NCBI GenBank assembly: GCA_013792135.1
Contig: VMSP01000171.1
Location: forward strand, 1 to 64,000
DNA from: Desulfocapsa sp.
GTDB lineage: Bacteria > Desulfobacterota > Desulfobulbia > Desulfobulbales > Desulfocapsaceae
Reading direction: 5' to 3'
Length of the DNA: 64,000 bases
Part shown: positions 53,298 through 54,837 of the stretch, piece after piece
Position numbering within the stretch: the first letter of the stretch is position 1
Layout of the letters: each line of letters begins with the position of its first letter
Made by a program: the position numbers and the translations under genes
Notes under the pieces: generated by a model
What the model saw: the letters and a program-made list of their open reading frames with translations, nothing else
Databases searched by the model: none
What the model was told of the DNA's origin: nothing

Positions 53298-53328
53298 TTG
53301 ACAGTAACCCTTTCTTTCATGTTATAAT
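53298..53328 (+). promoter_or_regulatory. sigma-70-like promoter downstream of nadD
   Basis: TTGACA (53298-53303) and TATAAT (53323-53328) match both consensus hexamers with a 19-base spacer; reading GTTATA at 53321 as -10 gives 17. A start near 53335 would transcribe the MITE-like element and then the CheB-like gene. Confidence 0.6.
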
Positions 53329-53406: not shown

Positions 53407-53559
53407 CTAGGAGTCTGTCGGATTTTGGTGATTCGGTTTTCGTAACTTGCTGATATTTAAAGAAATACCTGAAATGTTACGCAACTTGCAACTTGTATTA
53501 TATGTAGCAATATCAATATGTTATCTTTTTTAAATTCGGACAATCCGACAGACTCCTAG
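53407..53559. mobile_element. 153-bp MITE-like element with perfect 18-bp inverted ends
   Basis: CTAGGAGTCTGTCGGATT (53407-53424) is exactly complementary to AATCCGACAGACTCCTAG (53542-53559). The outer CTAG can be read as a 4-bp target duplication with 14-bp terminal repeats, or TA as a 2-bp duplication with 15-bp repeats. The 117-bp interior is AT-rich and has no ORF, so the element would need a transposase in trans. It lies between a sigma-70-like promoter and the CheB-like gene. Confidence 0.75.
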
Positions 53560-53616: not shown

Positions 53617-54837
53617 TTGACACAGAGAACTACCCAAACAACTACGCCATCTTTTCCAATCAAAGTTCTTATTGCTGATGATTCCTGGGTCTTCCGCAGG
53701 ATATTGCGGGATATCTTTAAAAGGATGCAGCATATTCAGGTACTAGATGATGCGGCAAACGGTATAGAGGCCCTTGAACAGATTATTAAGTTTCACCCTG
53801 ATGTTTTGATCCTGGATATGGAAATGCCGATCATGGATGGGCTAACAACCTTGCAACATCTGATGATTCATACCCCTACCCCGACTATTATTTTTTCCAG
53901 CTTAAGCCAGGATGGCACCGCCAGATCTTTTGACGCGCTCAAGTATGGTGCCGTTGATTTTGTGGCCAAGTCATCTTTCTTCAAGGGAAGTGATATGGCC
54001 GCCGACAATGAACTTATAATAAAGAAAGTGATTCAGGCAGCAACCATTACAGTAAAATCTATTGATCCAATGCAGTCTGTACTTGGTAAAGCAGAGATCG
54101 GCAATGCCCCGCATCTTGTTTTTTGTGAAGATTGCGGAACCAGGAATGTGGTAGATGCGCAGGTACTTTCAATGAGCGATAGTGCGCATTGCAGCCACTG
54201 TGGCGATGAAATTAAATTAAGTGCAGATGAGAAGTTTCGCCGTCTTTCCTATGCCGTAGTAATGGGTGCGGGTGAGGGGGGGTATGTTAATCTGCTGCAA
54301 ATCATTCCTTCTCTTTCTCCCGAAATGGGTGGGGCCGTGGTTGTGGTTATCCATGACGAACCGGAAAAGGTTTCTTCTTTTGTTGAATATCTTGGTTCAA
54401 TCAGTGGCATGAAAGTGGTGCGCGGTCAGGATGGTCTGACCATGGAAGGTGGGTCTTGTTATATCTTCTCCGGTACTGAGCGAGTGACTTTTTCGCCTTA
54501 TAGTGGTCATTATGTCCTGCGGGTAACGAGTGATCCAGGTTTTGTGAAACAAGGGGCGATTAATACGTCGTTGATGTCGCTGGCGCCACTCTTAAAGGAA
54601 CGAGTTGTGGGAATAGTGCTTTCCGGGTCTGAAAATGATGGTGTGAAAGGGATGGATGCTATTGGAAAGCATAACGGCACAGTTATTAGTTTGGATCTCT
54701 CTCGATGTCTTTGTAAAGATATGAGTGAAAAAATTATCCGTAAATTCCCAGAGACATTGATTGCTGATGAACAGGGGATTGTGGAGTTGATTGCCAAGTT
54801 GGATCGCCAAAACCGGCAGCAGGTTGTAATGGCATAG
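53617..54837 (+). CDS. CheB-like response regulator with inserted zinc ribbon
   Basis: A 406-aa protein. The N-terminal receiver domain (about 15-135) has the acidic pair in LIADDSW, phospho-acceptor Asp in LILDMEMPIMDG, and Ser/Lys in IIFSSLS and FVAKSS. A four-Cys zinc ribbon follows (Cys170, Cys173, Cys192, Cys195). The C-terminal half resembles the CheB methylesterase domain (VVVVIHDEPE, LSGSENDGVKGMDAI) but has MGAGEGG where CheB has GASTGG, so the catalytic Ser is absent. It probably acts as a signalling or binding protein, not an esterase. Start TTG 53617 follows AAGGGA. No chemotaxis gene is adjacent. Confidence 0.85.
   Translation: MTQRTTQTTTPSFPIKVLIADDSWVFRRILRDIFKRMQHIQVLDDAANGIEALEQIIKFHPDVLILDMEMPIMDGLTTLQHLMIHTPTPTIIFSSLSQDGTARSFDALKYGAVDFVAKSSFFKGSDMAADNELIIKKVIQAATITVKSIDPMQSVLGKAEIGNAPHLVFCEDCGTRNVVDAQVLSMSDSAHCSHCGDEIKLSADEKFRRLSYAVVMGAGEGGYVNLLQIIPSLSPEMGGAVVVVIHDEPEKVSSFVEYLGSISGMKVVRGQDGLTMEGGSCYIFSGTERVTFSPYSGHYVLRVTSDPGFVKQGAINTSLMSLAPLLKERVVGIVLSGSENDGVKGMDAIGKHNGTVISLDLSRCLCKDMSEKIIRKFPETLIADEQGIVELIAKLDRQNRQQVVMA

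Follow-up and report, generated by a model that had tools for sequence, protein, structure and literature searches.

IS1182-related MITEs of a size similar to that of the element described here have already been published. Two MITEs related to ISMac2, an element of this family, were found in Methanosarcina acetivorans, where they are 160 and 169 bp long and present in 14 and 7 copies, respectively, and 4-bp direct repeats were reported for one of the two (PMC3852290). ISPsy36, another IS1182-family element, uses the palindromic 4-bp target GGCC (PMC8027508). A further member, ISAzo2, is located on plasmid 2 of Aromatoleum aromaticum EbN1; it has CTAG on both sides, and its ends CAGCCTGTCGG are close to GAGTCTGTCGG. 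Our literature search yielded nothing useful on ISAzo2 or on MITEs in Desulfobulb*.

Here we describe an ordinary example of this known kind in Desulfocapsa sp. The element is almost certainly a non-autonomous MITE, probably moved in trans by a CTAG-targeting IS1182-family transposase, and is present in 11 intergenic copies. One copy lies in the 64,000-nt stretch of DNA that was analysed (the window, to which all coordinates refer), where 18-base inverted ends CTAGGAGTCTGTCGGATT with 0 mismatches bound a stretch of 153 bp (53407-53559). In line with the preliminary description, these ends are exactly complementary and the interior is free of genes. No ORF of at least 80 aa was detected within 53407-53559, and the stretch is short (under about 500 bp), with no transposase gene. 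At the level of RNA it is predicted to fold more stably than shuffled sequences (z = -5.35). The features of the element are the following:

53407-53410, no strand: CTAG, read as the left target-site duplication on the basis of CTAG on both sides of 11 of 11 copies and of just one CTAG where two other copies are absent from a relative
53411-53555, no strand: MITE proper, 145 bp, based on 11 genome copies, with boundaries from copy-free sites in relatives
53411-53424, plus strand: left terminal inverted repeat GAGTCTGTCGGATT, common to the ends of IS1182-family insertion sequences (IS)
53542-53555, minus strand: right terminal inverted repeat, GAGTCTGTCGGATT on the minus strand, based on the sequence and on copy comparison
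53556-53559, no strand: CTAG, read as the right target-site duplication on the same basis as the left one

Like the ISMac2-related MITEs, the element has an IS1182-family partner; it differs from them, as far as their published description goes, in the domain of its host and in its inverted repeats, which are 25-26 bp long in Methanosarcina (PMC3852290).

The search of the own genome (4.2 Mb in 186 contigs) revealed 11 copies of 152-153 bp on 10 contigs, with E-values between 8.6e-83 and 1.7e-51. Together with the fold z-score, this number of copies argues that the 153-bp stretch did not arise by chance, and a unique sequence, which according to the preliminary description would have favoured a simple hairpin, is excluded. 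The ten other copies are 89-96% identical to the one in the window, and pairwise identity among all 11 ranges from 86 to 99% (mean 92%). CTAG is present on both flanks of every copy, and perfect 14-bp ends are kept in six of them. The latter lends weak support to the earlier proposal that perfect ends point to recent movement; yet divergence among the copies amounts to 1-14%. All 11 are intergenic, and when the element was removed in silico, none was found to interrupt an ORF of at least 90 aa. Matches to the MITE were obtained in 4 of 38 genomes (own genome included); the other three (G014, G008 and G015) are congeners in which the copies are few and diverged. One of the copies in G014 is flanked by directly repeated CTGG, which is not palindromic, as expected if the flanks arose by target duplication. 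In addition, we observed that the 136 bp to the left of copy L006 (G000:C104:1-136) recur at the starts of seven other contigs. They are probably the terminal part of a different multi-copy repeat or IS which breaks the assembly.

The window copy is located between two features of the host:

53298-53328, plus strand: promoter-like host sequence outside the MITE, consisting of TTGACA, a 19-nt spacer and an extended -10 region TGTTATAAT; based on the sequence, conserved in the genus
53617-54837, plus strand: CheB-like host gene with receiver and CheB methylesterase domains (Pfam PF00072 and PF01339)

TTGACA is found at 53298-53303 and TGTTATAAT at 53320-53328. Our promoter scan did not list this pair, since it was limited to spacers of 16-18 nt and the 19-nt spacer is beyond this limit. 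However, TGTTATAAT is present in four relatives (G016, G002, G011 and G014), in two of which (G016 and G002) TTGACA is also readable. This pair corresponds to the strong sigma-70-like promoter of the preliminary description. The MITE starts about 80 bp downstream of the promoter-like sequence. Since this sequence is conserved and the CheB-like gene follows downstream, the MITE probably sits in the 5' leader of this gene. With respect to the gene product, it reads GAGEGG at the position at which CheB methylesterases have a GASTGG motif with the catalytic serine, as do the corresponding proteins of seven congeners. The CheB-like protein may thus be a catalytically inactive form conserved in the genus.

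Judged from its position, the MITE could possibly affect the expression of the CheB-like gene. Its insertion would add about 149 nt to the leader, and formation of a long hairpin in the mRNA is possible. A T-rich stretch is located 3' of the right end of the element; it is already there in the copy-free relative G011, and the site scan called no terminator-like site. It is unlikely that the insertion was co-opted, i.e. that the hairpin directly upstream of the T-rich stretch acts as an attenuator or as an RNase target and alters expression of the gene in this species.

A source of the transposase was suggested by single ends on contig C17. They belong to an IS of 1.49 kb (C17:29780) with 25-bp ends, which are 88% complementary, and with a broken transposase. 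The ORF matches the IS1182 model NF033551 (E 4.6e-71, 240 bits), its score being below the full-length cut-off of 270 due to the incomplete frame. A second IS1182 fragment is present on the same contig. An intact IS1182 transposase of the matching type was not found in the own genome (a draft assembly of 186 contigs), which could be explained by an assembly gap or by loss. By searching the taxonomic family, we found full-length IS1182-family copies with intact 452-aa ORFs in sister genera (L195, L196 and L200, 1.6-1.66 kb). The L195 protein scores 365.6 as IS1182, above the cut-off of 270. The three copies resemble the MITE in their ends, which have 0-1 mismatches to the 14-bp GAGTCTGTCGGATT, and in the CTAG on both sides. 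Thus, ends and target are common to the MITE and to autonomous IS1182-family elements, and a full-length IS with the same ends, the existence of which the preliminary description had proposed to check, occurs in sister genera, while the IS copies of the own genome are decayed. The interior of the full-length elements is unrelated to that of the MITE. The sequence match is limited to the terminal 16-20 bp, and for this reason we rejected the possibility that the MITE is a simple internal deletion of one of the IS copies found. The transposase of ISAzo2 is 57% identical to that of the closest intact partner; ISAzo2 itself differs from the MITE in being autonomous and in its ends, which deviate at 3-4 of 14 bases.

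The IS1182 assignment is at variance with the preliminary description, in which a transposase of the IS5 or IS630 family was proposed to move the element. Indeed, the IS1182 transposases show a weak match to IS5 models, with E-values of 1.9e-8 and 1.4e-20 and with scores that do not reach the curated cut-offs. However, IS1182 is the best-scoring family for the transposases found within these ends, and we found no IS5 or IS630 element to which the ends are common. Moreover, IS630 duplicates TA and not CTAG, whereas the duplication here is CTAG. We therefore consider an IS5 or IS630 origin very improbable.

The boundaries of the element and the mode of its insertion were deduced from copy-free sites. 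For ten copies, flanks of up to 200 bp per side were joined and used as queries against the genus. Exactly one CTAG was found at the copy-free orthologous sites of L005 and L010, both in G002 (L223 and L255, respectively). When these two clean empty sites are compared to the filled ones, the element and one CTAG are gained and nothing is removed at the junction. At the copy-free sites of L003, L007, L011 and L004, the 4 bp are CTGG, ATAG, CTGG and CTAA, respectively. In this genus search, clean empty sites were not obtained for L002, L006 and L008, and L009 had no junction-spanning match in any relative. Insertion at CTAG with duplication of 4 bp is the simplest reading of the copy-free sites. 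The CTAG at either outer edge is thus best regarded as a target duplication separate from the inverted repeat, which implies that the element's own ends comprise 14 bp instead of 18 bp and the element proper 145 bp (53411-53555). The preliminary description correctly stated that CTAG bounds the element, but placed it inside the repeat, which is ruled out by the empty sites with one CTAG.

At the window site, the closest relative G011 lacks the element together with 11 additional bp, namely TCAAAT, CTAG and a single T. Due to this loss, which includes CTAG, we rejected G011 as a clean empty site; the absence of the window copy is evident, while its exact target before insertion is not directly visible. 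The empty CTAG site anticipated earlier was found for two other copies. The 11-bp difference, which accompanies the element at the window site, raises the question of whether the target was an inverted repeat that was replaced and not a 4-bp sequence that was duplicated. There is a precedent for this, since IS1272, which is also placed in the IS1182 family, is reported to replace target stem-loops without duplication (PMC5678879). However, such a replacement has very little probability here, because the filled counterparts of the two clean empty sites have only gained the element and one CTAG, and because CTAG flanks all copies. Finally, the idea that the stretch is not mobile but a hairpin native to this leader and transcribed with it, such as an attenuator, a terminator or a structured RNA, for which the strong fold and the T-rich stretch after the right end could be put forward, has next to no chance of being correct as the primary explanation, since it is refuted by eleven dispersed copies and by orthologous leaders without the element, and since both-side changes affect only 2 of 40 predicted pairs (covariation term -0.7), no Rfam family was matched at gathering score and the T-rich stretch is found without the element in G011; a secondary regulatory role is possible.

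The designation as a non-autonomous MITE given in the preliminary description thus holds, based on the copies, on an autonomous partner whose ends match those of the MITE and on the copy-free sites in relatives. Such an element would carry only the ends recognized by a transposase. We propose that an IS1182-family, ISAzo2-like transposase acts in trans on the 14-bp ends GAGTCTGTCGGATT and inserts the element at CTAG sites, whereby 4 bp would be duplicated. In this way the MITE could have multiplied to 11 intergenic copies in the lineage, one of which would have landed between the promoter and the start codon of the CheB-like gene.

In a scan of bacterial and archaeal genomes, MAGs of several phyla contained numerous paired GAGTCTGTCGGATT ends among the matches listed; the two ends were often separated by 140-165 bp and flanked by CTAG. 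Such elements (L051-L165, likewise among the matches listed) were found in Gammaproteobacteria, in Desulfobacterales/Desulfoprunum, in Sulfurovum and in other MAGs. Three of them, L126, L130 and L132, have 4-bp flanks that are complementary and not directly repeated (CCAG/CTGG, CGAG/CTCG and TTAG/CTAA), which is unexplained by simple target duplication. The distribution of the short elements suggests that several MITE families use the IS1182-type transposase group. The element in Desulfocapsa is unsurprising in itself, and the correction of its boundary and family is an aid to annotation. At the broader level, it would be part of a widespread set of short elements tied to one transposase group.
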